Source: Henckelia pumila (lineage: Eukaryota > Streptophyta > Magnoliopsida > Lamiales > Gesneriaceae). Taken from it: 64,000 bases of DNA. A program made the translations under genes and the position numbers. The DNA lies in the NCBI RefSeq assembly GCF_033568475.1, contig NW_027331831.1, positions 2,666,001 to 2,730,000 on the forward strand. The letters run 5' to 3'. Each line of letters begins with the position of its first letter. The stretch's first letter is position 1. The notes below the pieces were generated by a model. It did no database searches and had not been told where the DNA came from. It was given only the letters and a program-made list of their open reading frames with translations. Positions 18,520 to 64,000 of the stretch are shown here, in pieces.

Positions 18520-19121
18520 TAGGACCCGCCCCCGCATCAAAATCGCCCCGACGGGGCGGATCTAGACCCGTCAAAGCGGGTCCGGGCGGGTCTTAGGTTT
18601 TGCCAAACCCGCCCCGGACCCGCCCCGCCAAAGTATTATATATATATAAATTTAAAATATTCATGTGTATATATAAATATAAAATATATATGTAATATTA
18701 ATAATATATAATTATATTATTATACTAAATAATTAATATTTTATCCATAATTTGAATGTTTAATATTATTGGATTGAAATAAAATTATTTTATTATGATA
18801 TGTTTAGTATAAAAATAAATCATTATAATGTTTTTTAGCTAATAAATATTAATTAATTACAAATTAATAAATTTCAACTTGTAAGAATAATTTATTATTT
18901 GTCTTAAATATTATAAATCTATATTTGAAATTAAATTTAATGATATTTGTTAATTTTTAAACTTTTAATTTTTTTATTTTAATAAATTTAAAATTATTTA
19001 AGTTATGGCGGGTCCAACGAGTCTAACCCGGATTGGATCCGCCGTGTTCGCGGGGCGGGGCGGGTCCAAAGGAAGCGGGTGGGTCCCGGGTTTAGCCAGA
19101 CCTGCCCCGTTGCCATCCCTA
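18520..19121. mobile_element. Element with GC-rich CGGGGCGGGTCC ends and AT core
   Basis: The ends are TAGGACCCGCC at the left and TGCCATCCCTA at the right, flanked by the direct repeat AGTGGTTTCTAG (18511-18522 and 19121-19132). Read as TAGG...CCTA ends, this gives an 8-bp GTGGTTTC duplication as in hAT elements. Both 100-130 bp ends consist of degenerate repeats of CCCGCCCCG or its complement, and the 350-bp middle is almost pure A/T. An incidental frame at 19005-19223 is not a gene. I do not know a named family for it. Confidence 0.55.
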
Positions 19122-19494
19122 GTGGTTTCTAGATTGGTGGATGAGAGAAGATCAGACAAAAGGAAGTTATTCCCTTGCCAAGGAGCTCCTCCCTTCCCGA
19201 GTAGAGAATCCTTCCTGGGCTAGAAAGGTCCTCCCTTTTCCGAGAGTCCGGGCCCTGGCTTGACTGGGTCACGGGTCCCACAGTATGGGCATCATCTTGG
19301 AGCGACAAAAAATAATAATGAATATAGCATTATTCAAAAAATTACGGGAAACATTTTGTCACATTAAATACTGTCAAAAATCACATGTAATGCAACCATT
19401 ACTTTTCTCCAGACTTCCTGGCATGGCAAGGGTACGTTCTTTTACGTTTTCATATTTACGCTTCTCACGTCTTGTTATTTACACATACTCAATT

Positions 19495-19543
<49 letters not shown>

Positions 19544-19802
19544 TTTTTTGTTAAAAATATTATGATGTTTCAATACATATATGAAACAAATCGACTTATC
19601 ATATATATATACATTTGTGATACTGTCTCGCGTAACATCGATTCCATGATAAAATGGCATGGAGCATCACAAGGAAAACGTGAATATGCTAAAAGCTCTC
19701 GATCTTGATTTTATAATGTTCAAGAAGTTGACTTCTCGATGTTAAATACACGATTGAGACTTATTTTTTATTATATATGCATGTAACATATATATGATTA
19801 GA

Positions 19803-19972
19803 TCTCTTGTGAGACAGTCTCACGATTATTTATATGTGTGACGGGTCAATCCTACTTATATATACAATAAAAAATAATACTTTTAGCATAAAATATAATA
19901 TTTTTTTATGAATGACTCAAATAAGAGATATGTCTCACGAAATTGAACAGTGAAACCATCTCACAAGAGTTT
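19803..19972. repeat. GTGAGACNGTCTCAC palindrome repeat
   Basis: It starts TCTTGTGAGACAGTCTCACG and ends with the inverse CCATCTCACAAGA. Internal landmarks are GACGGGTCAATCCTAC and ATGACTCAAATAAGAGAT. The same repeat lies reversed at 39213-39384, with worn traces near 1120, 30220, 38060 and 50560. It is non-coding and I cannot assign a superfamily. Confidence 0.6.
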
Positions 19973-20153
19973 TTGTGGTAACGTAATGATCATATATATC
20001 GTGTCTATTTTGTTTTTAAAGCTATTGATTTAACAATATATTGTGTATATTTTGTTCTTACAATTTTTTGAATTAATTATAATGTTATGAGATTTATTAA
20101 TAATTTTTTTAATCATAAAATATGAAAATTCAAGCCACTGCCCGCTGTATGAC

Positions 20154-20372
20154 ATTAAGGGCTGGGATACCGAACCAAAATATCGAATTTTCGGAATATC
20201 GTACCGAAATTTTTTCGATATATATACATTTTTTTGATATATCGAATTTTTTTTGGTATCTATACGGTATTAGTATGAATTTTTTTCATACCAAAATTTC
20301 GATATCGGTATCGGTATAAATTTTTTTCATACCAATATTTTTGATACGGTATATCGAAAAACCACCCCTTAA
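20154..20372. mobile_element. Palindromic TACCG/TATCG element
   Basis: The terminal tracts TTAAGGGCTGGGATACCG and ACCACCCCTTAA are inverted. The body is a run of degenerate TATCGAA, TACCGAA and GGTAT motifs that pair with themselves. TTAA stands at both ends, but because the end is palindromic the target duplication is ambiguous. A decayed relative is at 43436-43840. Confidence 0.5.
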
Positions 20373-22860: not shown

Positions 22861-24164
22861 GAATCGATGGTCGATTCACATTTTTTATTATTCAGTTCTG
22901 ATCATCTTTCACCGGAATCATGTTGACGTAGCATCAGACATGCCAGTGATGTCCGGAGCCACGTCAACATTTCTCGGTGGCATGTAGATGTCCAGACGAA
23001 AAATGAAATAATATATATGCGATAAATTAGTCGAGTCAAACTTAAAGATGAGCGATAAAAAAAAACAAAAAATTTTTTTTTTTAAAAAAACGAGATGCAA
23101 AGTACATGTCAAAAATGTCGTTATCCCAACAAAAAAAATGTGTCGGTTTGAATATTAAGTAATTTGATTAAAACTAAATAATATTGAATTCGTATATCTT
23201 GAATAAACAGGCTAAATATACGTTGCAAGGGGTTTTCTCCCTGCAGGTTTAATTAACTCAAAATTATATAATCAATATATTATACTATGATTCCAGAAAT
23301 TATTAATATGTATATATTATTATATTTATATTGGATTAAATAAATGCATAATTGATGTTTGGGGGGATAGTACAAAATAAATGCAGAGATATGGAAGCAT
23401 AGGAAAATAGTGGAGGGGATGGGTTCTTGGAAGTCTGTGAGAATGGCCTTTTCAATAATTCTGTAATCGTAATCTGTTGGCATTTATGATATATTCTTCC
23501 CAAGCTTCTTCCTTAAAAAAGAATTGTTTAAAATATTTCTGGAAGTCAAATTCATTATGCTATGTCTGTTTTTAAGTTCTTCTTTAAATATAAAAACAAC
23601 ACTATTTTCTCAAAACTAGATAGTCCACTTAAAAAAGTTAAGGTTTTTAAAGTATCTCGGTGTACATTTATACGAACATCCACTCTTGCATGTCATCTCG
23701 GGTTAAATTAACATTTTAGTTGTTAAAAAAATAGTGACTTTTTACTACTCCCGAATAAATATATATAGTGACGAAAATTTCAAATTTTTAAATAAATCAA
23801 GTTAGAAGTAGTTATTATTTATTTATTTTTGAGTGAAAACAATTTTTAAAAGTATATTTTTGTTGAAAAGAAAAGGACAAAAGGTATTAACCGGGCGGAG
23901 TCGAAATAGTAGAAATCTCACGTAGTCCTTGGTCACACGGCCCTCCCAAGAAACCCGAACCTTTTCTGTTCACCTTTCCAACTTATTGTGTCGTCTTCTC
24001 TCATTTTCCTCCAAAAAGTACACTCTTTTCTTGAATATCATTTAGCTTGTGTAAACTGCATTTTGATTTTGGGGCAGATAATTTGTGGGTTTCGATTAAA
24101 AATGGTGAAAAAGAGAGACACAAGTAAGGAAGAGGAGAAAAGGAAGAAGAAGAATAAAGGGAGA

Positions 24165-26119
24165 ATGGCATGCTGTGAAAAAGAAGGGATAAGAAAAGGG
24201 GCTTGGACTCCTGAAGAAGACAAGATTCTTGTTGATTTCATCACTCAGAATGGGCATGGCGCCTGGAGAAATCTCCCCAAAATTGCAGGTTTCACCATTT
24301 TTATTTTCTTTTGCAAATATGGGGCCATTCATTTGCTGTTTTGTGTTGTTCATTTCAGCTAAATTATTTCCTTCTTGGCATTTTGAGCCTATTGGATTCT
24401 ATCGTTGTTCTGGTTAAGAGTGCGAAAAGAAGCTTAAATTTGGTTCTGTTTCTTTCCATTGCTGTGAGAAAATATATTCTGAGATTTTATCATCAGAAGC
24501 AAATATACAAACATATAATGTATAGTTGTCTAAATTTTCGACAATTTTGTAATCTAATCTTATTTATTTGGAACAAAAAATGTGTAATGTATTGGTGTGG
24601 TCGTAATATGATCGATCACATGATTAGTTTTTGGGATTGAGAAGAAAGTTGGATTAAAAGATGGAATGTAGAGGTGAAAAAGAGTTGCTTAGAAGATGGT
24701 TTGGAAATAAGATTAGCATGTCACTTGTGTTTCTGGAACACATTTTCTTTTGTTATGGTAAGAAGAATATTGATTTTAAGTTCATTAAATACAATTAATG
24801 TTTGTTTGTCAAAATTGGGCATACGATAGAAAAAGTTGGAGTCGAGTTGAAAAGTGGTAGATAACATTACCCATACAAGGATCTCATTTGTCCTAGTTTC
24901 GGAAGATTTTTTCAACTGCATTTTCTTGTGTGGCATGGAGAGTATACGATTGCACGTGAGTCTTGGCTTCTCAAGAACTTCAAAGCAGTCACCCCGAGCT
25001 CGAGACTCCGGAGGCCCCTTGAGTGTAACCATAGACTACTCGATCAAGCTCGAGCAGTCGAATTTATGCTATAACCTCCTTTTCACCGAACAAGAAAAAT
25101 ACAAGCTTTTTTATTCAAGAATATTCTAATAGCAGATTTTTTTTGCGTGTTACAGGTCTCCTTCGGTGCGGGAAAAGCTGTCGGCTTCGCTGGATAAACT
25201 ATCTTCGACCCAACATTAAACGTGGTCCCTTTAGTGCAGAGGAAGAGAAAAGCATAATTGATCTACATGGAACACTCGGGAACAAGTAAGAAATTGCCTT
25301 TTTACACCCCATCAATTGCATCCCGGGGGGACCTAATATGAGGATTTTGTTGTTATTTCCTCATATTTCTTTGAGGAACAAGAAGCAATTCCGGGGGCAT
25401 CTATCACTGTTTAATTAGCTATGTTCCGCATCAAGGTTGTAGGTGAAACGATATCCTTATTTCGAATCACTGCTACTTTCAGATGGGCAGCGATAGCCTC
25501 GCGTTTACCAGGAAGAACAGACAACGATATCAAGAACTTCTGGAACTCGCATTTGAGGAAGCGCTTTGCCAGCATAGACTTCAACCAGCCGGCCAGCTCC
25601 TCTAAGTCAGTCGACACAAATCTTGAATCTCCGCTGTCTTGCCAACTGGTACAATCGGAGAGCATTCAACTCGAGGTCAAATCTTATCCATCAAATGAAG
25701 CACAACTTACACTGTCAGAAAATAAATCCGAAGGGGACTTCTTCCTCCGTCTGTGGAACTCTGGAGTTGGTGACTCATTCCGGAAAATCAAGGAGTGTAC
25801 AAGTGAATGGATTGGCGACACCTCATCTCACAGCCCAGCTTCTCAAACATCGTCCTTGACTAAAGCTGAATGGAGCTCCATAGCCACAAACCAAATCTCT
25901 AAATCCAACGCCAGCCAAAATGTGGAACCTCTGAGCTGCAGAAAGGAAGCAGACGTTTTTGCAGTCTGTTCTGATTTACCCAAACCATACGAGTTCGATG
26001 ATTCAGCAGATGTAATGTTACAGTTATTACTAGATTTTCCAGCGGGTGGCGATGATATGGGATTCCTTCAAGAATCCTTCAACAACGTCTCAGCCTCTAT
26101 CCGAGATCAGATGCAGTAA
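24165..26119 (+). CDS. R2R3-MYB transcription factor
   Basis: The exons 24165-24288, 25156-25285 and 25483-26119 splice in phase to 296 residues. The intron positions (A-G|G in R2 and N-K|W in R3) are the classic ones of plant R2R3-MYBs. R2 carries the three tryptophans ([19 protein letters not shown]). R3 has Phe then Trp, Trp ([16 protein letters not shown]), ending SHLRKRF. It binds DNA in the nucleus; the target genes are unknown. I prefer ATG 24165 ([12 protein letters not shown]) because MYBs usually start just before the CCEK motif. An upstream in-frame ATG at 24102 would add 21 Lys/Glu-rich residues. The bHLH-interaction signature is absent from R3. Its position between MSBP/F-box and remorin/b561 genes recalls the Arabidopsis MYB19/MYB45/LAF1 loci, but the sequence does not let me assign a subgroup. 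Confidence 0.88.
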
Positions 26120-27127: not shown

Positions 27128-29982
27128 TTAGAAACATCCAAGTAACTTCTTTGGTCCAGTCCCAGTAGCGCGGTATTTTGCAGCTACCTCTTCTGCCTTC
27201 AGAAGATCTTCCCCACGTTTGGCTTCAGCAATCGCTCGTTTTTCTTCTGCTGCCTTGTGGACTAGTGCAACCTTGTTCTTCATTTTCTCTATATACTCTG
27301 CTTTCTTTTTCTCCAGTTGTTCCTACAAATTATTCGTATATTGGGTCACAACCCAAATCTGCATTATACTTGCATGCCGATGACTTTATCATTTATCCAA
27401 AACATTGTAATTAATTATAGGGGCAACAAAGCATGTTAAAGAAATTCCTGTAAAGCACTGAAACAAAGATGGCAAAGTATGGGGTGAGTGATGTGATATT
27501 TTTTTTTGTTGGCTTGTTTTTCGAAATTTTCGTTTTCATTGATGATGACAGTATAGCCCGCCAGGTGAATAGGTTTATCTCTAAACTACCACTACTACAA
27601 AAAAAAACTCACGTTATATTATTATATGCACACGTGAAAACATAAGTTGACCACCAATCCAAATTGAAAAGCAAAAACAAATTTGATAGGAATAATCTAC
27701 AAGTTTCCAACATTAGTCGCGTGTCTCTAATCTCTATGTATGAAAGAGGAGACTTTATACTCTTTAACAAGGGGGCAATCAAAAGCAGCTCAGCCAAATC
27801 TCGACTCAAACTCGAGTAGTATGAGTACCTATCTCAAGCAATGCTCGAGCTTAGATTCCAGCATTCTATGAGTAATCAAGCTCAACAATTTTATTCTTAT
27901 TATGTTTTAAACATATTGATTAAATGAATATTTTTATCTTAATTTCGTCATAATTCACATACTGCATTATTCAATTTTAAAAAAAAAATCAAGAGTTTTC
28001 TTCTCAAAATAGACTGGATATTTGAGTTAGCCTATAGCTCAAATAACGCAAAAATCATGCAAATTGAGCTCGAACTGGAAAAGCACCACTAAAGTATACT
28101 CAGGTTCAAGTACTATTTTTTGGTAGAGATGAACTCCATGGTAGGGTGCTACTAGAGCATTGGGACTCCACATGTATAATTTCAAAACTAAACTAACAAA
28201 AGAAAATTTGAATGTACTTTTGAAAATCATCTCCTGAACTTTCCTTTGAACCTCTAAACACATACTCCTGGAATTAACCCAACGTCAACGTGGCAAAAAA
28301 GGACGTGAAGCATAACTTTGGATATCAAACGTGCCAGGCACATTCATTTCAATTTATTAAGGCGAAAAATCCATAAACTAAAATTGTGACTCCTATGTAG
28401 ATTTTCAATAATCTAAGCTAAATTAAAACCAAAAGAAGACAAACGAATGATTTTGAAAACAATCAATAAGCAAAATTTAATATTAAAAACTGTTAATATG
28501 TAATTGCATGAAGTTTTTTTTTCTGACAAATTTATGTTTAAAGTTTCTCTTTTTAAAAATACTTAAAATACAAATTATTAAAATAATTATTTTAGCTATA
28601 TTTTCATTATATTATTCACAGTTCACACCCACGTCAAATGCTTTTTTGTTATTTACTACTAGCACTCAAAAGGGGCAAAAGCTTAAGTGCTTGAGTGCCC
28701 CGGAGGCTGGAGCCTAAGTGCAAAACAAAGCCAAGAACTTTATTGAACTCAAACACAAAGAGAAACTTCTGTCACAAAAATTCAATCTGTGCGTTGCCAA
28801 TTATTTAGCAGCAAGCCTATAGGAAAAACCAGGGCGTGCACAAGTATATCAAGCATATGACGAATACATATTAAATGGAACAAAGTATAATTTGTTTTTT
28901 GGAAATTTTGAATTAACTAACATGCAGTTTTTAAATCCATGGTTGTTTAGGGGGTTAGGGGATGGGGCAGCATCAAAAAGAAGTCATTACACTAAGATTT
29001 ATAGCTTGTTACCTCGATCTTCTTAAGCTCAGCCTCCAGACTAGCTTTCTTGCAGTTCTCCCACGCCCCGATAGCAGATACCTTCTTCTGAGCTCTGTTA
29101 ATAATTCAGCAGCAAAGGGCCACCAGTTGATAAATGCTCATTTTACCCTACTTTCCTACGGACACTCAACAATTATTGAGAAATCTCTAATGAAAAAAGA
29201 ACACAACTTACTTGTTTTCAGCTTTTGACTTCTCACTTTCTTCCCATGCTCTGATCAAGGAATTCCTCTTCTCATTTGCTACCCGTATAAGTGCAGCATC
29301 TGAGGTAGTATAACTCTCGACTCATTCACTATAAACAGAAGTAGTAGTATTCTAAAATAGTCTTGATTACCTCTGATGAGGGATCCCTCGGCTTCTTTCT
29401 TCTCAGTAGAGTCTGGTTCTTTAGCATAGAACAAAAAAAAGTCGAATGTCAGGGAAAAGGCTTGAGTTAAAGCAAGGGCTAATCACCATGTTCCTGAGCA
29501 AGGTACGTCAAAATTTGAGATTTACCATATAATTTTACAGAACATAAAACAAATTTCAAGAGGGATGCTATTATTATTATTCTTTTTTTTTTTTTGGAAC
29601 AAAAAAGGGATGTTTTTTTTTTCGACAGTGTGAAAAAAAAGGGGATGCTTTCGAACATAAAGAACATGCACCTAAAATTCCAAATTCGAATTCGAGAAAC
29701 AATCTTATTATCACAGCAACAAAGAACCCTTTTTTCCTTTACAATCAAAGACACTAAAACATCTCAAATACCAACACAAACAACAGAGAAGAAAGGAAGT
29801 CTTTACTTACTTTCGACAACAACAAGAGCCTTGGACTCATCAGGTTTCTTCTCTTCAGCAGGTGGAATCTCAGATTTCTCTTCCACCACATCTTTCGGAG
29901 CCTCCACAGGCTCGACCACCGGCGGCGGCGGAGGTTCGGAACAGGTCTCGGGTTCCACATTCTTGGTTTCCTCCTCACCCAT
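27128..29982 (-). CDS. Remorin
   Basis: Five exons (29811-29982, 29371-29418, 29212-29299, 29013-29094, 27128-27322) join in phase to 194 residues. Remorins are plant-specific plasma-membrane nanodomain proteins that act in virus movement, symbiosis and receptor signalling. The N-terminus (1-60) is Pro/Glu-rich and disordered (EPPPPPVVEPVEAPKD). The remorin C domain runs from about 75 to the end: ALIRVANEKR, AWEESEKSKAENKAQKK, then a long Lys/Glu coiled coil (EQLEKKKAEYIEKMKNKVA). The last residues GPKKLLGCF form the C-terminal anchor with the cysteine that is S-acylated in related proteins. The 1.7-kb fourth intron is AT-rich. Arabidopsis homologues include At3g48940 and At5g23750. Confidence 0.93.
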
Positions 29983-31932: not shown

Positions 31933-34900
31933 TCATTCATGTTCTATGGCACTGTAACCATGATCGTGTTCATCTTCTGGAGGAGCCTTAGACAGGATCG
32001 TGAAGATGACAAACGACCCGTATAAGATGGTGACGATAGCGGTGAAGTTGACAAGGAAGGCCTCCGAACCATATTTCGCGACACCCGAGCTCTCCAGGAA
32101 GGTAAGCTTTTCAAGGTATCCCAAGGCAGCAGTGCCTACAGCCAATATATAAACAGAAATGCCGAAAAGTACATGCCATGGAAGTGACTCCCTTCTAAGT
32201 TGTGGTGCTCCTCCAGGGTAAAAGAAGACCACGAACCCAAATAACCACTGTAAATGATCAGAAAAACATGAGATATAAATAAGATTTTGGCAAATTGTAG
32301 TCCTTACTTGATGAGTATTAATGAGAAGCTATGGAGGGATGGAAGCCTTTTTATAGCAATAATTTTTCCTATATAGCACCTATTTATGCAGCATGATTAT
32401 AGAAATATTATATTTATCAGAGCCAGCGTCATTCGAAATTATTTGGAGGGGAAATGTTTGCTATAAACAGTTGGCCCTGTATCTTAATGTATCTGGCGTT
32501 TCAATCGATAATCAAAATATCTGAGTTGTATTGTTAACTCCAACTAAAACTTTGTTACAATCATATTTGCTCCTACAAGCCTTATTGATGTAACTAATCA
32601 CTTAATTAACAAGAAAATCGGTTCAAGCTTAATCCTTTTTGTCATGACAATCTCAACTTGTTATCGCCCTTCAGATCACAAGGTGAAAAAAGCTACGTCG
32701 ACATGCCAGTGGTGAAACACATGCAACAAGAACCTTGCTCACATATTTATGCTACTCAAGCCATGATTTTTAACTGGAACATAAAGGGCACCCAAGAAAA
32801 GAATATAAGATAGAAAAGGAGAATTAATTTGAGTATTTGAATGTTACCTGGATTCCATAGAGAGAGATGACACCAATTCCGAGCCAAGAGTGTAAACTAT
32901 ATAAATTTGCAATGTTGCTTTCATTGTGGAACTTGAATGCGGTGTATATTCCAATGATACCGAGTGCAAGAGCAATAGCATGAAGAACTAGATGTATTAG
33001 CTTCTTTTCTGCCTTCTTCAGAGGCAGAGATTTGTAACTCATAATGGCTGTAATTATAAAATAATGGAGAAAATTAAGAAAAATTTTCTACTAATTTTAG
33101 GTTCCAGATGAATTTTTATTACCTTGGCCTCCGATTACGATAAACCCAATGAACATCAATACAGGATGATTCTGGAGCCAAAAGAAGAAAAATAGATGTG
33201 AGACTTACCACAACAATCTTAGTAGCCAAGTTTTTAAAAAAATCTTAAATGAATGTTCCTGTTTTAGATCTTATTTTCCTGTCAGAAGAATCAACCTGAA
33301 TTGAAGCATTGCAGTCCCTTAATCGACTATAGTAAGTTCTTCACTGATCTTCAATTGCAAGAGTTTATCTTTTGAAATTCATGACCCATCTTTATTCCTC
33401 AACTAAACCCCGTACTTACAATGTTTCTGAACTATAAAATGTTTACTGTGATTCAACCAATTATATATAATCTGCAACACTAAGGGAGTGTTTGCAATCA
33501 CTAAAAAAAAGTGATTGTTAGCTTTTTGCTTAAAAAAATCATTTTTGTGTGTTTCTTAAACCTAGATTGTGTGTTAAATTATGCTTAACTTATTGAAATC
33601 CAAAATCTAGTCGTGTGGTGATTTTGATTCTCCAAAAGTGATTCTAATAAGAGATCATTGTTAAAATCATTCTAATCACTTATTTATCAAACATTACCCA
33701 ACTTCGATTTTTAGATTTTCAAATATGTTTTCAAACACTACCAACTTTTGATTTTTTTTAATTTTTTTATAATTTATGAATTAATCACTTCTACAAAAAA
33801 CACAATCTATTGCAAACACTCCCTAAGCTTTGTGGATATATTCTATCATCTTATGAAGAAGGTTTGAAACCATAATCATCTCCCCATATAAGTTAAGAAA
33901 GAACACCATTTACTTTTTGATATACTCTAGTGCTTTTGATTGCTGGTGGACCATGTAAGTAACGCTTTTGAGACTTACATAATCCAAGAATACCCAAATA
34001 AAATCGGTATGTAAAACCGTGAACCTCATATACACAACGACCGGATCAAATATGCCAAAAGCGAAGAACTGACAGCCAAGTTTGGTCCCAAACTTGCAAA
34101 AGGCTTCCAATAACTACAAACACCCAATCTCTTTTTTCACCACCCGATGTAAATAGTACAAGGGCAACGAGGACCACGTGTTCATCATCTCTAGAAGTAA
34201 CACAAATCTCAATCAATGCTGCCTAACTTCTCTAAATGTAACCTATAATATCGCACAAAAATCGCTGCAAGTGTTCAATCTGGAATTGCTCCAATTTGGC
34301 ATATCGTTTTAAAGATTGGAAGAGATCCACGCATAAAAGAGTGACTCCTGTCGCAAAACCTTCACTTGAACTTGTACAAACCAAGTGGTAGAAGCATGTG
34401 GCTAAGGTAGTGTTTTAGAGAACTTCCAGGAAACACTTTTCCGCTTTTTATTAACAAAATTTTGAAATTTTGTGAAATTTTGTTAAAAAAAAGTTGAGAA
34501 GTGCTTCCAAGGAGCTCCTAGGAAACACTACCTAACATATCATTCTAGTTGGCGGATGAAAAACAGGGCAGCCAGGGCCAGCCCCCCTGCTTTTATTTAT
34601 TTAAATATCCGTAACACCGTAATTATATCAGATAATTACAGTTACACCCCGTCTAAACTTTTGTCTAATTAGTTTCACGTTTCAACCCTCCTAGAAAAGA
34701 ACCTGCATTCTATATTTCTATGTGTGTCAAGTGTTCTGTTCATGATTCCCAAATCACAACTGAACCTTAGGTTGTGCTTGGATTGAATAAATCGACTAGA
34801 TAAAATTCAAATTACTTGACTTGCGTGGACAATCCAATCCACGCCTCAAATCCTTCCCCAAATATCTCTCCCTCCAAATCAAATGAATCGATCCAAGTGC

Positions 34901-38144: not shown

Positions 38145-38537
38145 GGGACGAAATCCTCTGCTATATTTGGTGCTACAAACTGTGCTACACTTTGCTAAAA
38201 ACAACCCCGTTTCCACAAATTATTAAAAATTAAATTCATTAAACAACATGGATGAACAAAATATAATTAATCATTGATAAAATGTTCGATTCACCTATTT
38301 TTTCAATTAAAATAGGCAATAAATTATGTCCCAAGCACGATAAATGAGTAAAACAATTTATTGATGATCTTTTAATTGAAAAAATAGGTGAATCGAACAT
38401 TTTATCAATGATTAATTATATTTTGTTCATCCATGTTGTTTAATGAATTTAATTTTTAATAATTTTTGCAAACGAAGTTGTTTTTAACAAAGTGTAGCAC
38501 GATTTATAACACCAAATGTAGCAAAAAATTTCGTCTC
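38145..38537. mobile_element. Mutator-like hairpin MITE with perfect inner arms (393 bp)
   Basis: GGGACGAAAT at the left and ATTTCGTCTC at the right are inverted ends, flanked by the exact 9-bp repeat ATATTTGTT (38136-38144 and 38538-38546), the MULE-type duplication. The outer 70 bases of the arms have several mismatches, but 38217-38312 and 38370-38465 (96 bases each) look identical as inverted repeats. A 57-base loop separates them. It is non-coding. Confidence 0.8.
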
Positions 38538-38902: not shown

Positions 38903-39212
38903 TTTAGTACATGCCGCCCGCAGGACACTATCCTGCGGGTGACGTGTAACCCCATGATTAGTCAAAATTAGTGGGTTCCACGTAGGACCCATTGATTTTA
39001 ACCAATCATGAGCCGCCATGCAGGGGCGTATCCAGAAAAAATTTATCTGGTGGACAAAATTTTATTCGCAATCAATCTAACAGTTAAAGCTAGCTAAATA
39101 ATATAGTAATGATTAAATACAAAATTGTATATGTCAAACCTATAATATCTAATATTATCATGTAAATCTATTGTTTTCCAAAAATAAACTCATTGTCTTA
39201 TAAATTAAAAGT

Positions 39213-39384
39213 CACAAAAACTCCTGTAAGATGGTTGGTTAATTTTGTGAGACGAATATTCTATTTGACCTGACACATGAAAAATAATAATTTTTATGTC
39301 AAAAACATTATTTTTCATTGTAAAAAAGGGCAGGTCGATCCGTCACACGGATTTATATCCGTGAAACCGTCTCACAAGATACCT
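39213..39384. repeat. GTGAGAC palindrome repeat, inverted copy
   Basis: This is the reverse of the 19803-19972 copy. It ends CCGTGAAACCGTCTCACAAG and contains the complement of GGTCAATC as GGTCGATCCGTCAC. The left end (CTGTAAGATGGTTGG) is worn. It lies inside the hAT-like element. Confidence 0.6.
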
Positions 39385-39870
39385 ATTACTGTAATAATCA
39401 TATCCAAAAAAATGCATTACTAATTTTATAACTTAATTTATAAATAATTAAATGAATACATATTTAAATAATGATATTTCGAAAGTCAAAATTTTACCGA
39501 TTTATTCAGGAAAATAGACTTGAAAATTGAACTAATCAATTTATTGAAAACAATACACATTCGATTTTGGCTATTCTTTTGAGAATTCCACCTAAATTTT
39601 ATATTAGATAAACATTGGCATACATCTCCAAATTTTTTACAATAAAAAATCCACGATAATATGTAATAGAATAATAACAAAAATGACTGGAACATTAACA
39701 TATTTAGCAATTGGTGAGGATGTGTAATAAATACTATGAGAATGATTCTCATTGCCACAAAATTTGAAATATAAGCTATATATCTATATCCTTTTAAATA
39801 TATGAGTTTATTTGTGATATTACACTAATGTCCCTTGATTTATTTGCTTGTGTATCTATCATTAAATACT

Positions 39871-40281
39871 CATTTAAGATCACTATACGTCTTCTCAATC
39901 TTTGTTTTGCATTTTTCACTAATTTTTCTTCATTTATTTGCATATCTTGGTTTTCCTCAATGATTAATATCTATCATTAAATACTCATTTAAGATGACTA
40001 TACGTATTTTCAATCTTTGTTTTACATTTAAAATATCTTTGAATATTGACTATGGTCTATGGGCATTTGAAAACATCATTTAAGATCACTATACGTCTTT
40101 TCAATCTTTGTTTTGCATTTTACACTAATTTTTCTTGATTTATTTGCATATTTTGGTTTTCCTCAATGATTAATATATATCATTATATTAAATACTTGTT
40201 TAAGATGACTATACGTCTTCTCAATCTTTGTTTTACCTTTAAAATATCTTTGAATATTGACTATGGACATTTGGAAACATC
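39871..40281. repeat. 206-bp tandem duplication with internal sub-repeats
   Basis: Unit 1 is 39871-40076 and unit 2 is 40077-40281. Each unit contains two related halves, ATTTAAGATCACTATACGTC and TTTAAGATGACTATACGT, each followed by TCAATCTTTGTTTT. Differences between the units are few. It is non-coding. Confidence 0.75.
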
Positions 40282-41527: not shown

Positions 41528-41528
<1 letters not shown>

Positions 41529-42051: not shown

Positions 42052-42144
42052 TAAATAATACAGCCTAAAAATCTTATCATAAAAGTCCCAAATTCGAATA
42101 AATAATACATCCTAAAAATCTTATCATAAGAGTCCCAAATCGAA
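42052..42144. repeat. 47-bp tandem duplication
   Basis: Two adjacent units begin AAATAATACAGCCTAAAAAT and AAATAATACATCCTAAAAAT and end TCCCAAATTCGAAT and TCCCAAATCGAAT. Only a few bases differ. Confidence 0.75.
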
Positions 42145-43164
42145 TGATAAAATCTTGAGCACGTGAATTGAACTTGATGAGTCTAATGTACCATCATATT
42201 ATGGAGAACATGATAATTAAAAAGGTCCCTTAGAATGTAGGAGTCGAAATAAACATTCTAATAAGAGCAACACAAATATATTAACCCATTTTACAGGTTT
42301 TTAATTTTTTTATTTTTATTTCTTACTTCTTGAAGTCTATCCATAGACAAAGTAGGAGAAAACTTTGTAACTCTTTATTAAGGGACCAAAACTAATAAAT
42401 TTTCCTTCTTCATAACCCTCGAAGGTTTAGGGAAACTCTAACTCAATTAAGAAACATGCATCTTAATAATTGCAGCGCCCAACCAACTTCATCACTAAAT
42501 TATTTAATTAATTATTAATTATGAGACAAAAGGCTCCAATAATTTCATATTTAAATGATTTGGCTAAAATAAATTTATTTTCTAATATGATTCTTAATTA
42601 TTTCTAGGATAGAGTTTATTCGAATCAAAAGGATTGATATCACGTACAATATATATGATTTGGTTGGTTGGGTGAGCCGTGAAAGAGGAACACCTGATCT
42701 TAATATTTGTGTGTGTGTGTGATTTAGCTTTTAGGTGAGTGAGTGAGTTAGTGCATATCTTATATTTACCATCATTATTCCTTTATCAACCATGAAGACA
42801 AAGATTATAAAATAATACACATGATATAATGAACAACATAAAAATTTATTGTCGTGTTTACTAAAATTATTTTCTTTAAAAAAAATTTTTAATCAAGGAA
42901 ATAAAAAGATTAATTGTATAAGAAGATAGACTCTAGGCATTTTGATAATTAATTTCACTTCTTAATGATGATAATTTTATAAACATGTTTATAATCAATA
43001 TGTTCTTACGTGCGTTTCTTACGTGCAACACACATGCACACCATCAAGTATAAACAAAATATGGGCAAGAGTTTGCCGGGCAAGAGCCCACTCTTGCCCA
43101 TATAAAAGGTCCGCCCCTGCCGCCACGTCACCTGCAGAGCATTACTTTACAAGTAGCATCTACT

Positions 43165-44390
43165 CAACCACTTTGCTCATGTTTGAAATGGTGTAAAAAA
43201 AGTGTTTTCAACTTTTTCTTTAAAAGAACTTGGATCATTGAAGTTATTATAATTTATAAGTTGTTTCGTAAGATGTGGTGATTGATTTGACCTCGAAAAT
43301 TTACTCTTAAATGTTTATAGACTAGAACCACGGAATTTATCTAGAGTCGGGGAGGTTTGGACACAAAAGTTGGCCAAAAAAATAAATCCACAAGCATGTT
43401 AGAGTTTGAATATCTAGACTTTCTTCGCCAAGAGTGACATACCGTATCATATCGAAAAATAAATATCGTATCGAAAATTACATTGTAAGAAAATTTTATA
43501 CCGATATCGTATCGAAATTTTTGGTACATATAACTAGCATACCGATTATACCAAAATTTTACGGTATATCGAGATTTCAATACAATATCGATATATACCG
43601 TTTTATACCGCAAAAAACCTTATATTTTTAAAATTTTATTGCTTAAAAGTATTATATATTTTTTTAAAAAATTATATAATATTTCGATATATGAGCATAT
43701 AACGAAATTTTTAAATTTCATATCGTTAACATATCGTAACATGCTTTACTGAAATATTCGACATATAAAAAATTCAATAAATTCAATATTTTTCAGTTCG
43801 ATAAGCTTAGTAAAAATTCGATATTTTTTTCCGCAAATATCCATTGCTTTTCATATATGACATACTCCTATAAATAGCCTCGTATTATATTAAATTTTTT
43901 ATAAAAAAAATGGTTTTAAATAACTTTAATCATGTTTGAATAAACTTATTCAACGCCTTTGAAAGTAAAATGATGATGATGATGATAATAATAAAAAATA
44001 AATAAACAAATAAAATTTAGATATTGGAGTTTTTAATGCTTTTCATTATTTTGAAAAATATAATAAATGTTTAATTTTTCCTTGTCCGTTTTTACAACTC
44101 TCTCATTCAAATAGGAACCGATTTCAGCATATTCATAAACAACGAATTAAATAAAATCATAACCAAGATAAATCCTACAACGAAGTTCTTGCTATAAAAC
44201 AGACAACTAAAAATGGAACCTCATGAAACTGTGTGCTATATATCTTTTCTTTTCTTTGTTGTTAAACAGCAACTGTGGTATGTATACGTATATCGACTCA
44301 TACTGATACAATAAGAACAGACAAAACTTCAAAGAAAAGAAAGGCAAAGTTTATAATGGTCAATCTTCTCTGTTTTCCCTGAGTCTCGCA
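43165..44390. other. Spacer with a decayed TACCG/TATCG palindrome
   Basis: From 43436 to about 43840 the sequence is built of degenerate ACCGTATC, TATCGAAA and TACCGATAT motifs like the element at 20154, but without intact ends. The right part (44100-44390) probably holds the glycosyltransferase 3' untranslated region. No other gene is apparent. Confidence 0.4.
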
Positions 44391-47300
44391 TCATTGAAAA
44401 TGTTGTTCCCATGATTCTACTAGTTGTATATTCTTCTGTTTTCCCTCAAGAAGAGCATGAAGTGTCGCAGGATCGTGTGGCGGAGGCATGACGCATGGAT
44501 CCCAATAGCTAGGCCCTTTAACCAGAGAATCCGTCATGAATTTCTTCTCCAATCCTTGTGCATGGCAAGCCATTGATTCCGAACACAGCTCGACTGCTTT
44601 CTCGGGGACGGTGGGCTTGTAGGTTAAAAGCTTAGCGTACTCGTTCAAGAGATGAAGCATGTAATCGTACACGTAGTCCATCTTTAGTTCCTCTAGAACG
44701 AATTTGCTTGCAGTCTGGCCGATGGCTTGAGCCTGTTTTCCAGAGTATGAAACATGTGTATGGTCGATAATACGAGGGACGATGCAAGAACTCAATTCTT
44801 TTAGCTCGTAAAGTAACTAAAACACTGCATTTAGATCGTTTGCAATGCTCACACAAAGTTCTCAATCCATGGGTCATTGTAATTACAGAGAGAGAGAGAG
44901 ATGATCATACCTCTTGTTCATGGCTATTTCCATGGTCAACTGCATATTTAATCGATCTGCACTTATCGTCCTCCCTTATCGGCCAGTAATGTTGCAGTGG
45001 CATCAAATATCTAGTGAAAAAATCATAGTAACGAGGCTTTACAAGCAACGTCACAGAATTGCAAGCTAGAATGTATTTCTCGCTCACGGACCATGCTGAC
45101 CCTTCAATGTAAATTTTGTATCTGTGTATATTGCATGATGGGAAAAAAAAACGAATGAAGCTGTTGATATTCTTAAGCAAACAATAAGGAAACAAGTCCA
45201 TGAAATCATATCCCCATATCCATATAAAAATAACCTGCAGTTTTGATACTTGAAAAAAAAACGAACCCTATATAAATAGTTCATCCGTCACACCTGTGAA
45301 TGCATTGGCTCGCCAAGTCGGATTGCTTGTAACCTTGATCTTGTTCTTGTTTCCAATCCTGCAAATTTATTTCGAGTAATTATTGGTTCAGTGTTCTAAC
45401 ATTTCCCTGTCAAATGCCAATCTCTGTGTAGGTTCTATCAAAATTCTTGATTCCTCCCAAGAAAATCACATCAAATTAAGTGAATTGTTAAATCCTATCA
45501 TAGCTCAAAATGAAGCTTCTAATGATTCAAAACAAATATAATTTGACGAACTTGTGCAAATTTCCATACATCAATTCTTATTGAAAGTAAAAGTCCAAGA
45601 GGAAATTAAACTTTACCTGTGCGTATACACGAGCATTCCAATCATGTTCATCAGAAACATTACACTTGAGCAAATCCATCCTGGTGGCAGCAACGACTGG
45701 ATTTCCCTTCCAGTAAGCATGCGGTTCCCTATCCTCCCATCTGGTCCTCATGTTTCCTTCTTTGATATCTTTGGACAAATCATTCCATGGTTTTATATTT
45801 ATCTCCGGCCTAAGCAATCAAATCTAGTCTATAATTCCACCAATGCTTCGGTCACACATTATACTATATAATCAAGATTATATATTATATGTACTCCGAC
45901 GAAACAAAAACTTACCATCCCCAGAACGACCAATCTGGAAACACTAAATCATATGTTGCATCGTCGCCACAGTATCTGAACAATGGTGGTGGAGCTTTAT
46001 ACTGGGGCTCGTGGAAAGTTTCTTTCTTGATGACCGGCCAGTCTACACAATCAAACATCAACTCCAAATCCGGGACTTTTCCAGGGAACTTCCTTAGCAA
46101 TTGCAAGATCCCCCAAAGAGTAAACGTATCTCTACTTTGAAATGATTTTCTATATGTTTCCACATATGCTTTCCCGTTTAATATCACCAATCGGAAATTT
46201 GCTGTTCGACTGGCACTCATCACCATTTCTTTAGTGATTCCTGTCTCCCTCCATGGCAACAAATCATCATGAATCCAACGGAAGTAACCGGGACACGAAG
46301 GTGGTGGGCTTAAGTAAAGGTTGTCGTTTTCTGATGGATTTTTGGAAGGGTAATAATTGGCGGGGCATGTTCCAGGCAAGGCACCAGGTGAACAATTCAG
46401 TGGTATTTCTATGATCTTGGGATGGATTTGAAGTGTTTCGGGAGGATGATGATACATTGTTTTGGTAGTTAATACTGGTTTCTGAGGGTTTTCAGGCATG
46501 ACCTGCAAGAGGAGACATTAAACAAAATTTGAATAGGATTGTTAGTCTTTGTTTGAATGGTAGATTTGTGAAGGAATACAACACAAAGGCATCCACAAGC
46601 ATATGAAGAAATAGTGTTCAAGTTGTCTCTAGACAACTATTTCTTTTGCATTCTCAACAAATGACAGTAGTTTCTAACAAAGGCTATATTTTGATTTTGT
46701 AAATATAAACTTTACCACTTCTTCTACAATGATAACATCATAAAAACACAAAATATTAGTTATTGAATGATATATACAGTCGACCGAGACTGTAATTTGA
46801 CTATATAAAGAATCAAAAATTTATTGAAAAGTAAAAATTTCTCTTATAAAAATAAAGATTTCCAGAACAAATCAAAATAAGAAACATAAATGCTAATGCT
46901 CCCACCAATTTAGAATCCAAAATGGCCACATTACTATAAAGGTTTGTTTACAAACACTAAAAAAATAAGATTCTCGGCTTTTGGCCTAGAAATTGGTTTT
47001 GTGTGCTTCGCTAACTTTTATTTAATTTAACGAAATCCAAAAATTGGTGAAATGTTGATTCTACTTCTAAGAAAAATGATTCTGGCAAAAGTAGTATCAG
47101 AATCACTTATATCAAACACCATGATCATATTCTGATTTTCAACTTTTCATTTTTGTTCCAAATCACTATGACTTCTTATTTTTCCTCACTTCTTCATAAT
47201 TTATAAACTTAATCATTTCTTCAGATACAAAACCTGTTGTAAACACCACTTAATTAATCCCAACTATACCATTACACTAATCAAGATATATTTTAAGCCC

Positions 47301-47894: not shown

Positions 47895-50057
47895 GTGTTC
47901 ACTTCAGAGTCGAAATCCCACTAAGATTTCGAGGTATTTTTCAACTCTGGTGGCCAGCTGCAGGCAGGCACAGATTAGTTTTGTCGGAATCTGTGTTGCA
48001 GTTTTTTAAGCAAAGGGCAGCAACTTTTGACTTTTTTTATGCTCATTTCACGCACATCCCATCACCGATTTAATGTTTGTGTATTTTACACACAATGTAT
48101 GATATATATATATTAATCTTTGCGAAGTTTAATTTCGATTTGTTTATGTATTAGTAATCTTTTGCATACATTGTATAACAAGTAAATATCGAATAAATAG
48201 AATTTTTTAATCATTTATCCTGATTATTTAACTACATTTAGAAAGTTAGTTATTATACATTAACCAAAAAGTTAATTGAAAGACAAATTTTGGCTGGTAT
48301 TTTTATAAAATAAAAGTACCCGTTTATTTAGTTTTGACTTGTGTTTACATTTGAGGTGAAACTAACCAACGGTCAACAGAGTTAGATTTTCAAAATTATT
48401 CTCTATATCAAATTTCTTTTAAAAAAATATTATTAATGTTATTTTTGGAACATATATATATGTGAGATTCTTAATTAGGTTAAGACTGAAATGAAGTGGT
48501 AATTAATTAAACTAAAGTAAGCTAAAAGATGTGCTTAGAGAGGTGCAGAATCTTGATATACATGCAGTGTTGTAATTGGAGGCGCGAGGGCCGTTAGACT
48601 TAGACCTCATCGTTTCGTGTGTCTAAGCGGTTGAATTTTTCCATGTCTAATTATTGAATTTTTCCATGCCTAATTATATATAATCATGCCTGAATGAATA
48701 ATTAAATATATATTATTTAAGTTTATTATATTTTGAATATAAAGTGTATAATATATTGATAATTAGAGTTTTTTTTAAAAAACAAATTTGATGATTTTTT
48801 ACCATCCTGAATTCCTGACTCAGACCGCCTTCTGAAGCATCTTAAAGCAAAGGCGATGCAGTCGATAGCTACCTACAGCCGGACATTGTTTAAGCGACTT
48901 GACCGTCATTTAGAACGTTGTATATAGTGGTGCAAACGAATCGAGTAAGTTAGTGAGCTTTACGAGCTCGCTCGATAAATATTTGATTCGTATTCGAGCT
49001 TATCGAACTCGAGCCGAATTCGAACATTTTTTCGAGCCGAGCTCGAGCCAAAATTATTATGTTCGATAGTTCGCAAATAGTTCGCGATCTTTAATATTTA
49101 ATTAATATAATATAATTATATAATAAATATATACATTTCGAACTTTATCGAACATTTCGAGTTTTTCGAACCATAATATCCGAGCAATAGTTCACGAATA
49201 GGTTCGAATATTTCGAGCCGAACTCGAAATCAAACTTCATTTCGAGCCGAGCTCGATCCAAAATATTTGAAATTATCGAGTTTCGAATCGAGCTCGAACA
49301 TACTCTTATCGAGCCGAATTCGAGTATTAAAATTTTATCATTATTCGGCTCGATTCGATTCATTTGCACCCCTACCCCTAGGTGAATACAACAATTTTTT
49401 AAAACAAAATTCAAAACAGAGTGCCGACTAAAATGGAACCAAGCTTATATACATAATTATGATTCTTAAAGTAACACTACTCCTCTTCCCGAAGTGAACA
49501 TCAAATTTATTTTCGTTTTTAATACAACACTAGTGTATTGATGCACACGATATGTGCTTGTATATTGCTTTTTTATTAATGTGAATTAAAAATTATCAAG
49601 GAACTAAATTGCAATTATAAAAATTACCGAGAAACTAAAATGCGATTTAAAATATTGAAATTTTGAAAAAAAAAATTAAGAAAGATCAATTTTTGTAAAA
49701 TAGAAGATGGATGATGTCTAAGGGAGAGATTCTTTATGTATAAAAAAAAATAAACATAAAATAGTAAACAATACTTTGGTATAAAGTTCTGTATATTATA
49801 AACATATAAAAATAATTAATATCGTATAAAATATTGGAATATATTCTAAAAGATGAATTCCCATATACATATATATAATTATGTATTGCCAGAAAACTAA
49901 TAAATGAATACTGGAAGCACAATATGTAAAAGAGCAAAACGGAGAATGCTTTCAAAAAAAAAGAAAAAAGAAAAAAAGAGCAAAACGCAGAAACGATTCA
50001 ATTTCTATTAATTCTAATTGAAATCGACGTTTCACACAGTCCATTTCTCTTACATAT
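47895..50057. other. Spacer: glycosyltransferase promoter and repeats
   Basis: The first 200 bases are the likely leader and promoter of the minus-strand glycosyltransferase. A repeat-like stretch without clear ends spans about 48575-48920. The CGAGCTCGA palindrome follows at 48926-49374. The remainder to 50057 is AT-rich and should include the 3' untranslated region of the zinc-knuckle gene. Confidence 0.4.
48926..49374. mobile_element. Palindromic element with CGAGCTCGAGCC core
   Basis: The ends TAGTGGTGCAAACGAATCGA and TCGATTCATTTGCACCCCTA are inverted repeats with a few mismatches. Both halves are strings of degenerate TTCGAGC, CGAACTCGAG and AATTCGA motifs on either side of a pure-AT centre (about 49095-49135). 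No target duplication is visible. An incidental frame crosses it on the minus strand and is not a gene. Confidence 0.6.
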
Positions 50058-60540: not shown

Positions 60541-60905
60541 TAGTAATACATGTATAAGCTCTTTATTGGATCGTTCTATTGGCTCACTGCATAATCTGAT
60601 AATCACAAGGAAAATCAGCAAAAACTAGAAATCTTGATTAAAAAATGTACAAATTCTACAAAATATTAAACACAAGTCATGAATTGTAAATTGTACTTAC
60701 CAATCTCACAGCATAATCTGATCATCACAAAGAAAATCAGCTAAAATTAGAAATCTTGAATAAAAAATGTACAAATTCTACAAAATATTACAAGACAAGT
60801 CATGATTTGTAAATTGCACTAATTGAGAAAGGAAAAACAAAGAAAAATCGGAACTAAAGTGTGTAAGATTAGACCAGGTATAGAAATGATACACCAAACT
60901 GAAGC

Positions 60906-63396
60906 CTAAAGAGAATAAAATTGTGAATACAGATGATCCCGGATTTTGTAGTACTCTTCCGATAAGGGGCCTTCGAGAATTATATGTTGTATATTGCCAC
61001 CACCCTACAACAGATGTTCCAAGATTTGCCACGATTAAATTATGAATAAACTACACCTCAAAGTTACAATTGCTTCGTCCTGTAAGAAAATTTACCACCA
61101 TAAAGTAGCGTTTGTATCATGAAAATTATATTCCATCAATGTCGAAAGAACTGTGTTTCATGGTTGATTTGCATCTTGAAGTTATGTACAATGTATTCAT
61201 GGAATTTACACTAGAAAAACGTGTCACGACATGAAGTTTATACTAAACAACTAGGTGAACGTGGCCCATTCAAGCATACATATGACCTGATAAAAATCAA
61301 CGAGATGAATTCCCGTATTACAAAGTTAAATATAAATAGTACTAGTTTTTCCAAAATTAGTTTCTATCCACTTCTTGATACGCAGGCACACCTTGGAATT
61401 TACATGCTCTGTAGATGAATTCCATTGATGTTAGAGCATATATTACCTCTATATAATTAAATCGAAATAATATCCTTGGTACCTAGGTCTTCTATGAAAA
61501 AGTTGCAATCTGCTTTCGTTTAAAAATTAACCTGTTCTGAAAAAGCATAGCCACAAAAAGGTTTTCTGTACTTGACTGACTGCTAAAAGAATGCGAAATG
61601 AGGAAATATCTTACAAATCAAAGCAAAAATCACCAACCTTTTGGTTTGAATCTCCAACTTTGCGCAGAGTCACATAGTCCCCACAACGCAATGCACCACC
61701 AGCAAATTCAACCTAAGAATATAACATATGTTAAAACCACATTAAACTCTTAAAAAATTGAAAATAAAACAGAGCAGACTAGTAGAGTGCCTAAGGCCAA
61801 TCGCCAGTTTGCCACCCACTTAAATGAAACAATAATCAAATTTACATGTAATTTTGCTGAAAATTTTGTAGTCGGTCCTGAATCAAACAGCACAACATAT
61901 GGCTCATTTACATAGTCAAACAGGGGCTGTCAGGAACCCGAAGGAGTTCATTTTGTGTTTAAACAACTGAATCTTTGATAACTAAAATACCTGGATCCCT
62001 TTGCTAGCAAGAAACTGCTTGAAGTCAGCCATTTTTATGTCCCCAACCAAGACTGTCTTATGCGGTGGAGCAGGAGTTGAAAGAGGAAGCAAAGACAACG
62101 TTCCACTTTCTGTCTTCCCTACTTCAGCATCAATCCATGCTATTTCATAATCTCCAAGCTATAATAAAAATGTGTGCACTTTTCAGATATAGAAAGAGTG
62201 TATTTTGAGTAAACCACATCCATTTACAAGGTGGTGACAAAACCCTGGAACTTCACAATTTGGTGTATTTGGCTAAAAATTTTAGGAAGAAGCCACTAGC
62301 CAAAGTTTTATCAACTTTAGACTCGCATGCATTTGCAACGGTTAATACACAGTAGCAAGACTTCATGCCATCTATTCACAGTGACTCTTCTTAAAATACA
62401 TCAACAGTAACAGTTGGCACAGCTTCTTAAAGGAAATACTGAGGTGCTTACCTTCTTGAATAGAATGTTACTCATTAATTTCTCAGAAAGTTGAACCTAT
62501 ATTTCAAAAGGAAAAACATAATAAGCCCCAGATTACATGGTCAACTGCTAATGAATTCAAAAAGGAGATGTAAAACATGGACAACTTACTTTATAAGCAC
62601 ACAAATCTGAAGTGACATCAATTGATTCCTCAATCTGAGGAGCATATACATGGGGACAAACATTTTTGAGACAATGTTGCTTTAAATGCTCGGTGGCTTC
62701 TGCTGATCCATGTACTAAGACCTAGGTCAGAGACGAAAAGAAAAAGGTAATTGTCAAAGAAACTTAATTCAATCACCAAACTCTTTGTAAACGGTTGAAG
62801 GCAACAAAAAAACGCCTATAGATATCACATGATAAGATACCAGTCACGAATAACCTACCCCTAAAAAATGTAAAAAATTCCCAATGTTCTAAGGCAGTAA
62901 GAAGTTGTATATTATCACAAGGGATATTACTAAGTTAAAAAAGAATATTATTCGGTATCATATGATGCTACTTGCTTCTAAATTTTCAGAAGATATATCT
63001 CGTGTGTCACTGTGACGGGAATAGCCCGTATTGTGTGGGGGAAACCATACAGTCATTTGATCATATTTTGTGTTAAAAACTTCAAATAATATTCAACAAT
63101 ACCCTGGAATTAAGAAATATTGGAAACTTCTATGTTTATAACAATATCTTGGAGTAACGACAACATAGAGAAGAAAGGAGAAAATCTGAAAAGTTCTCAT
63201 TATTTTTCTTCACAATCTTTGTGTAATTACAAGCCCGCCTATATACAAGTCTAGTTACCTTATTTCTATATATTATACAAGAAATAAGCCTTAACTGATG
63301 GGTACGAATAAGCAACAAATATTAAAAAGGACATTTTACTATAAATAACTTATTCTATTCCAGTTTTACCACTTCTCTAGGAACAAATACAAATAC

Positions 63397-63439
<43 letters not shown>

Positions 63440-63582
63440 TGTGTGACGTAATACATAACAAAAGGCACAGAAAAGGTACTTACAAGCTTCAAGGGGGAAA
63501 CATGGGCCAGAATCTTTTTGATTGAGCTGCCATCAGATCGGCCCTCAAAATCCATAAAGACCAAGGAACACTTGACATAGAC
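60906..63582 (-). CDS. CPSF100: CPSF100 (CPSF2) cleavage and polyadenylation factor, C-terminal part
   Basis: Six 3' exons (63484-63582, 62590-62721, 62452-62496, 61991-62158, 61638-61712, 60906-61004) encode the last 205 residues; the upstream exons lie beyond the window edge. CPSF100 is the catalytically inactive metallo-beta-lactamase partner of the CPSF73 endonuclease in pre-mRNA 3' processing. Visible family blocks are VKCSLVFMDFEGRSDG, IKKILAHVSPLKL, HCLKNVCPHVYAPQIEE, VTSDLCAYK, VQLSEKLMSN, the C-terminal VLVGDIKMADFKQFLASKGI, VEFAGGALRCGDYVTLRKVG and the end YYKIRDHLYSQFYSL. All introns are GT-AG and phase 0. The model ends at TAG 60906-60908. The Arabidopsis homologue is At5g23880 (ESP5) from memory. 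Confidence 0.93.
63399..63444. repeat. TG microsatellite
   Basis: An array of about 20 TG units, interrupted once by TTTG, in the CPSF100 intron just downstream of the exon at 63484-63582 in transcript order. Confidence 0.9.
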
Positions 63583-63650
63583 CTGCGATGTTGCGTTTAA
63601 CAAAGACATCAAATTAATAAAATAAATCAGACGGGTGGACTATTAACACA

Positions 63651-64000
63651 TAGGGCTGTTCATTCGGTTACAACCGCTTGAAGAACCAAAAATTCGGTTA
63701 ACCAAAAATCCTAACTGAACCGAATTAAATGGTTGAGTTTGGTTTAAACAGAAATTATTTCGGTTTTTCGGTTAGGCCGAATTTTAATTTTTTAAAATGT
63801 TTTATTTATATTCATTAACAGTAAAAATAAATAATAAAAAATGATTTAAAAACTAAAAAAAATGATTTTAAAAAATAAAATAACATCGGTTTTTGGTTCG
63901 GTTCAGATAGCCGAGCGAAAAAACAAAAAATGCAAAAAACTAAAAATCAAAACGAATTAATGGTCCGGTTTTCAGTTCAAACTGAATTTACGGTTTCAGT
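63651..64000. mobile_element. TTCGGTT/AACCGAA palindromic element, cut by window edge
   Basis: The left end TAGGGCTGTTCATTCGGTT is followed by strings of degenerate TTCGGTT, AACCGAAT and TTTTTCGG around an AT-rich centre (about 63785-63890). The mirrored half then runs to the end of the window, with the right end outside. It lies in a CPSF100 intron. Confidence 0.5.

Follow-up and report, generated by a model that had tools for sequence, protein, structure and literature searches.

The stretch of DNA analyzed here, referred to as the window, comprises 64,000 nucleotides of Henckelia pumila (contig NW_027331831.1, positions 2,666,001 to 2,730,000 of the forward strand), and all of the evidence on the elements below was drawn from this one 64-kb window. 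Five arrays of short repeated motifs, E1 to E5, lie within it. E1 to E4 appear to be miniature inverted-repeat transposable elements (MITEs) of the hAT type, and the pattern that they form appears to be real and to belong to a system of a known kind. E5 shares the TACCG/TATCG array of E2 and is probably its decayed relative, in keeping with a preliminary description of this DNA that listed it as a relative lacking ends. The elements and their parts are as follows.

18512..18519, + strand: candidate left target-site duplication of E1, GTGGTTTC, alike at 8/8 positions with 19122-19129
18520..19121, no strand assigned: E1, putative hAT-type MITE with a CCCGCC/GGCGGG array; right end TAGGGATGGCAACGGGGC, degenerate left end TAGGACCCGCC
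19122..19129, + strand: candidate right target-site duplication of E1, GTGGTTTC
20157..20370, no strand assigned: E2, putative hAT-type MITE with a TACCG/TATCG array; both ends AAGGG(C/G)TG; flanks ATGACATT and AATAAATT, 5/8 alike
20265..20340, + strand: internal direct duplication of E2, two 35-nt copies with 89% identity and 41-bp spacing
43436..43840, no strand assigned: E5, TACCG/TATCG array without ends
48925..49380, no strand assigned: E3, putative hAT-type MITE with a CGAGC/GAGCTCG/TTCGA array; ends TAGTGGTGCAAACGAATCGA and TAGGGGTGCAAATGAATCGA; flanks GTTGTATA and GGTGAATA, 6/8 alike with the end set behind the doubled part
49369-49380: outermost 6 bp (CCCCTA) of the E3 right end, in tandem twice
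63651..64000, + strand: E4, left part of a putative hAT-type MITE with a TTCGGTT/AACCGAA array; left end TAGGGCTGTTCATTCGG, right end outside the window

The end common to E1 through E4 is the 8-bp sequence (T/A)AGGG(N)TG. AGGGNTG was found facing inward at both edges of E2, at only the right edge in E1 and E3, and at 63652 in E4. The right end of E2 (AGGGGTG, 20363-20369, minus strand) was missing from the four ends given in the preliminary description, and the left end of E3, AGTGGTG, has one mismatch to the consensus. The ends thus have the form of the short T/CAGGG-type terminal inverted repeat, reading TAGGGATG, AAGGG(C/G)TG, TAG(G/T)GGTG, and TAGGGCTG, with E2 starting with A. Array edges were defined as the first and last motif copy, with a distant E2 match at 20580 trimmed and the right edge of E4 excluded. 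By this definition an inward AGGGNTG lay within 15 bp of five of the nine edges, compared to a mean of 0.020 and a maximum of 2 in 20,000 trials of random placement, the 15-bp limit and the motif words having been picked with the sequence in view. The edges of E5 had no AGGGNTG within the same 15 bp. Enrichment of the bare word across the window was rejected (18 found versus 15.3 expected); it is the position of the word that counts. The common end of the four elements is thereby upheld.

Six ends were then aligned, giving 13 pairs, with the left end of E1 dropped. Identity between families averaged 6.3/8 at positions 1 to 8 and fell to 2.1/8 and 1.6/8 in the next two blocks. The agreement at positions 2 to 8 is partly circular because the ends were located by the AGGGNTG word, but the sharp loss of identity past position 8 is not.

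The length of the target-site duplication was determined with each boundary placed, following Ac/Ds, a single base beyond AGGG. For E3, the right end was set behind the doubled 6 bp, and both registers were built into the null. E4, whose right end is outside the window, and E5, which has no ends, were not counted. The 8-bp flanks matched at 8/8 positions in E1, 5/8 in E2, and 6/8 in E3, and the sum of 19/24 was reached in a fraction of 0.00002 of 50,000 random flank pairs (P about 2e-5); E2 and E3 together gave 11/16 (P 0.004). Other lengths (2-7 and 9-11 bp) gave 0-39% matches over E1 to E3, the pooled counts including 8/30 at 10 bp and 10/33 at 11 bp, and 8 bp was the best length for both E1 and E3. 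The duplications of Mutator (9 bp, 9/27), Stowaway (2 bp, 0/6), and Tourist (3 bp, 3/9) were rejected for the set as a whole. A shared duplication length was the test that the preliminary description had named for a single system, and the result points to 8 bp.

Inside the ends, the motif differs by family: CCCGCC in E1, TACCG/TATCG in E2 and E5, CGAGC/TTCGA in E3, and TTCGGTT in E4. Families of the TTCGGTT, CGAGC, and GGCGGG types are common in plant genomes. The self-similarity of each array was scored by 6-mer self-match and compared to 300 dinucleotide shuffles each, using element boundaries that differ by a few bases from those listed above. E1 to E5 scored 193, 93, 453, 95, and 177, against shuffle means of 69, 13, 91, 21, and 30 and shuffle maxima of 117, 30, 154, 57, and 67, so that the interiors of all five arrays stood at a z score of about 9 to 20. 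Other, partly overlapping segments of the window scored as high in 8/466, 2/476, 0/472, 7/464, and 6/477 cases for E1 through E5, respectively. Motif copies begin near the ends and occur in both orientations at many spacings, which constitutes the repeated subterminal motif found in hAT elements.

The motifs of all five arrays have a CpG core in common. The earlier characterization of the motifs as wholly different was therefore right in that the motif differs by family, but too strong. Observed/expected CpG ratios were 1.77, 2.90, 2.80, 2.10, and 4.22 for E1 to E5, compared to 0.76 for the whole window and about 0.7 for random segments, of which 1, 3, 0, 1, and 0 of 1000 reached the respective values. 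The ratios of four further MITE-like stretches in the window were 1.17, 0.27, 1.10, and 0. The first CpG was 13-18 bp from the end in all six ends scored, and at 8 in the dropped left end of E1. Neutral methylated repeats lose CpG.

The elements had also been described as palindromic, with their motifs symmetric about a pure-AT centre. As stated, this could not be sustained: with G and C given double weight, the best ungapped inverted self-match was no higher than the shuffle maximum in all five arrays, and long palindromes, or a foldback element with long contiguous inverted arms, were rejected on this basis. Direct self-matches of E1, E2, and E3 (34, 30, and 38) exceeded all 100 shuffles (maxima of 20, 15, and 21), whereas those of E4 and E5 (15 and 18) were not above their 100-shuffle maxima (18 and 18); the direct scores of E1 to E5 were reached by 6, 2, 5, 29, and 9 of 100 other segments. 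When the two halves of each element were aligned, the direct score was higher than the inverted score in E2 (36 versus 26) and E3 (57 versus 30), and only in E1 did the inverted score (50) rise above the shuffle maximum (47), in AT-rich DNA. What survives of the palindrome is a tilt of motif orientation between the left and right halves in E1 (12:6 versus 0:8) and E2 (5:1 versus 3:5), with E3 at 6:3 on both sides and no tilt, and the folding of E1 to E3. As single-stranded DNA these three folded better than all shuffles (z of -6.7 over 20 shuffles, -5.6 over 200, and -9.3 over 100, respectively). Folding of E5 was weak (z of -2.0, with 4 of 100 shuffles equally good), and, in contrast, the genuine palindromic MITE at 38145-38537 folded at a z of -28.8. 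Some inverted symmetry is present, but the self-complementarity is mostly that of many partly self-complementary motif copies and a short inverted end, rather than of mirror-image arms.

An AT-rich middle was found in E1 (381 bp without CpG, 10% GC) and E5 (74 bp at 8% GC). The corresponding stretch of E3 (52 bp at 4% GC) lies about 40 bp off centre, and E2 has no such stretch. E4, of which only the left part lies in the window, contains 107 bp at 7% GC. As for the suggestion that the interiors grow by local copying, E3 holds two 62-nt copies with 74% identity, and E5 holds a 19-nt tandem pair with 84% identity that is not above shuffles. The direct self-matches lend some support to local copying in E1 to E3, though not in E4 or E5, and the arrays probably lengthen by local duplication.

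Ends like those of Ac/Ds together with 8-bp duplications mark hAT elements, and on this basis E1 to E4 were assigned to that superfamily. We consider it likely that they are hAT MITEs with Ac-type ends and family-specific subterminal arrays, each docked by a transposase of its own, and have filed them as further non-autonomous hAT elements close to Ds and the "hATpin" MITEs. The comparisons that follow rest on the parts of the cited accounts consulted. Ac/Ds elements have C/TAGGGATGAAA ends, 8-bp duplications, and many transposase-bound hexamers within 200 bp of each end, and many non-autonomous derivatives share little besides the end (PMC3260210). The present elements resemble them in having the C/TAGGGATG end, the 8-bp duplication, a short motif repeated inside the ends, and non-coding size variants (PMC3260210). 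Unlike Ac/Ds proper, they do not have the 11-bp end C/TAGGGATGAAA, positions 9-11 being GCA, GGA/GTT, CAA, and TTC, and AAACGG has 0 copies in E1 to E3 and the part of E4 in the window (1 copy in E5). A shared end with different, internally self-similar bodies had been thought to set these elements apart from ordinary MITE families. This fails for hAT elements, as Ac/Ds itself combines one short common end with many copies of a hexamer that the transposase binds, and the surprise is gone because hAT elements usually pair the same end with a self-repeating interior that differs.

The transposases of Ac and Tag1 bind subterminal motifs rather than the end sequences, and these motifs differ among hAT elements, with CG/AATTCAT being the subterminal site in Herves and AAACCC/TGACCC that in Tag1 (PMC3143072). 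Hermes sites consist of AAGT followed by AT-rich DNA, with the BED domains of several subunits gripping several repeats (PMC10368747). For DNA-binding domains of hAT origin, CGG or CGC within protein-specific motifs is the usual preference, with some AT-rich sites, and the motifs of four measured hAT proteins are present in their own subterminal regions (PMC8097297). Element-specific subterminal motifs are thus common to E1 to E4 and to Herves, Hermes, Tag1, and the CGG-binding proteins. The latter differ in being mostly animal or fungal (Tag1 is from Arabidopsis) and in their motifs, except for one 8-mer. This 8-mer, CGATTCAT, lies in the right end of E3 at 49356-49363 and is exactly that bound by the mosquito Herves transposase; its distance from the right end is similar in Herves, and with 3 copies in the window the match may be due to chance.

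Among plant MITEs, hATpin elements (Moreno-Vazquez et al. 2005; Menzel et al. 2012) are, by the titles of these papers, MITE-like hAT elements of diverse plants, and the likeness is by title description rather than by sequence. The "highly stable secondary structures" of the title were found in three of the four elements folded (E1 to E3, not E5). The hAT-like MITEs of carrot (PMC8227079) and Brassica nigra (PMC7385995) are likewise non-coding; those of B. nigra have an 8-bp duplication, as here (PMC7385995), and those of carrot average 454 bp and make up one third of 428 MITE families (PMC8227079). Neither main text uses the word "subterminal", and the parts consulted describe no motif arrays (PMC8227079, PMC7385995). 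Among the literature matches listed on hAT elements and MITEs, in which subscription literature is thinly covered, no description of the four motif families was found. The six end words searched as text returned no transposon paper by title among the matches listed.

In the mechanism that we propose, the outer 8 bp, (T/A)AGGG(N)TG, would serve as Ac-type cleavage ends, and the family motif inside each end would form a subterminal array bound by the BED zinc finger of the cognate transposase. The transposase, an octamer in Hermes, would gather many weak sites and pair both ends, and the element would be cut and pasted, leaving the 8-bp duplication. The arrays would then lengthen by local duplication, perhaps during repair of the excision gap, which is a plausible source of the copies. 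We propose that the motif differs on the same end because the transposase clade differs. The preliminary description had envisaged a common mobilizing enzyme. A common kind of enzyme is supported by the shared 8-bp duplication, but it is that of the known hAT superfamily rather than of a new system. The family-specific motifs may favor separate transposases over a single enzyme, given that the subterminal motifs bound by hAT transposases are particular to each element.

Several observations weigh against this assignment and mechanism. The left end of E1 has only TAGG, followed by ACCCGCC and without GGATG. Only the duplication of E1 is perfect and strong alone, those of E2 (P 0.07) and E3 (P 0.023 with two registers) being weak. 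The direct repeat flanking E1 is 12 bp in all, AGTGGTTTCTAG on both sides, so that its boundary can shift. E2 also matches at 2/3 positions with 3 bp, and because this stands against 5/8 at 8 bp, E2 alone decides nothing; moving its right boundary inward by one base gives 2/8 at 8 bp and 6/9 at 9 bp. Registers had already been inspected by eye when the rule was settled, which makes the P values optimistic. When 8-bp duplications with one mismatch and 12-bp ends were scanned for blindly, 22 matches were obtained, versus 20, 11, and 13 in shuffles, and E1 to E3 were not recovered. No hAT transposase domain, such as a BED finger or hAT dimerization domain, was found in the 20 of 140 open reading frames (at least 70 amino acids) searched in Pfam, nor did a six-frame search of the 4,099-bp stretch at 39021-43119, with stop codons read as X, return any Pfam domain. 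In maize, some Ds1 elements remain mobile although they lack the bound hexamer, and Ds-like elements that carry hexamers were immobile when tested; the motif array is therefore neither strictly needed nor enough there, according to the parts of the account consulted (PMC3260210). Two measured hAT transposons also bind AT-rich rather than CG motifs (PMC8097297, in part).

The mobility of some Ds1 elements without hexamers (PMC3260210, in part) would also suit a single hAT transposase that moves all four families through the AGGGNTG end, with the interiors mattering little, as would the 8-bp end and duplication length common to the families. We regard this as improbable, since the motif varies by family while the end stays, and since Ac and Tag1 transposases bind subterminal motifs that differ between hAT elements (PMC3143072, in part). 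It is somewhat less difficult to suppose that the arrays have no binding role and are degenerate tandem or segmental duplications growing neutrally inside a MITE, a reading that gains from the direct duplications of E1, E2, and E3 above shuffles. Copies placed near the ends, in both orientations and at varied spacings, argue against neutral growth, as do CpG ratios of 1.8-4.2 where random segments have about 0.7 and the other MITE-like stretches 0 to 1.17, and we think it unlikely.

That some or all of the elements belong to another superfamily, for example, Mutator-like (9 bp) or Stowaway/Tourist-like (TA/TTA), would draw on the shifting boundary of E1 and the 3-bp and shifted 9-bp matches of E2, and genuine elements with 9-bp duplications are present in the window (38145-38537 and 41167-41348). 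With boundaries fixed, however, the lengths of these superfamilies fall far behind the 19/24 obtained at 8 bp, making such membership very unlikely. Chance clustering of simple, CpG-rich sequence that was never mobile would be in keeping with the lack of window-wide AGGGNTG enrichment, and a few other segments are equally self-similar; but word position, flank duplications, and self-similarity are all above controls, and we give chance almost no credence.

Returning to hAT MITEs docked by separate transposases, a broader idea can be put forward only tentatively and may well prove wrong: plant hAT elements might carry a two-part address, comprising an invariant 8-bp cleavage end and a clade-specific, CpG-cored array that co-diversifies with the BED finger, with the CpG core acting as a methylation sensor and array length tuned by local duplication. 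Binding of the Ac transposase is inhibited by methylation at its sites, and hemimethylated sites after replication are favored, in the parts of the account consulted (PMC3878927), with which CpG cores would fit. If such an address exists, the recognition code of the BED finger could be read from the MITE interiors of families lying side by side, the conserved end giving the superfamily and the repeated motif giving the mobilizing transposase. If CpG-cored arrays are general, MITE interiors could reveal which motifs are bound by plant hAT transposases not yet studied and by the host proteins derived from them, and could be used to study methylation gating of transposition, as reported for Ac/Ds (PMC3878927, in part).

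Pattern scans elsewhere identified 0, 5, 9, 18, and 3 stretches in viral contigs and 2 in bacterial or archaeal genomes. A partner word was present within 2 kb at 7 of these 37 loci; the flanks of these 7 agreed at 1-4 of 8 bases, and none of them was above a z of 2 in 6-mer self-similarity versus base shuffles. The highest self-similarity of the 37 was that of a locus without a partner word (L017, z of 7.1). All 37 loci were taken as chance matches.

The genes and gene pieces recognized nearby in the window, which give it the look of nuclear plant DNA, are as follows.

5534-9508: leucine-rich repeat receptor kinase
15829-16320: F-box
23913-24359 and 25415-26116: MYB pieces
31936-32328: cytochrome b561
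within 44394-46517: glycosyltransferase family 90 pieces

Further MITE-like stretches were also observed. A stretch of 180 bp at 1784-1963 has ends CAATGGCGGAGC and CAGTGGCGGAGC and 8-bp flanks TACAGCAT and TACAACAT (7/8 alike), and is perhaps another hAT-like family. At 27768-28090, CGAG/GCTC motifs were seen by eye to flank an AT-rich centre without recognizable ends, a possible decayed relative of E3. The near-perfect palindrome at 38145-38537 has 169-nt arms (92%) and a 9-bp duplication, ATATTTGTT, and looks like a Mutator-like MITE. Two inward ends of type CAGGGGCG, 4,099 bp apart, bound the stretch at 39021-43119 (the Tip100 end is CAGGGGCGGAG); its flanks, CCGCCATG and CCGCCACG, are 7/8 alike, its ends diverge soon after 8 bp, and it is possibly a larger hAT element of a second clade. 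Within it, at 41167-41348, lies a palindromic MITE-like stretch with a 9-bp duplication, TTATAGTTT.

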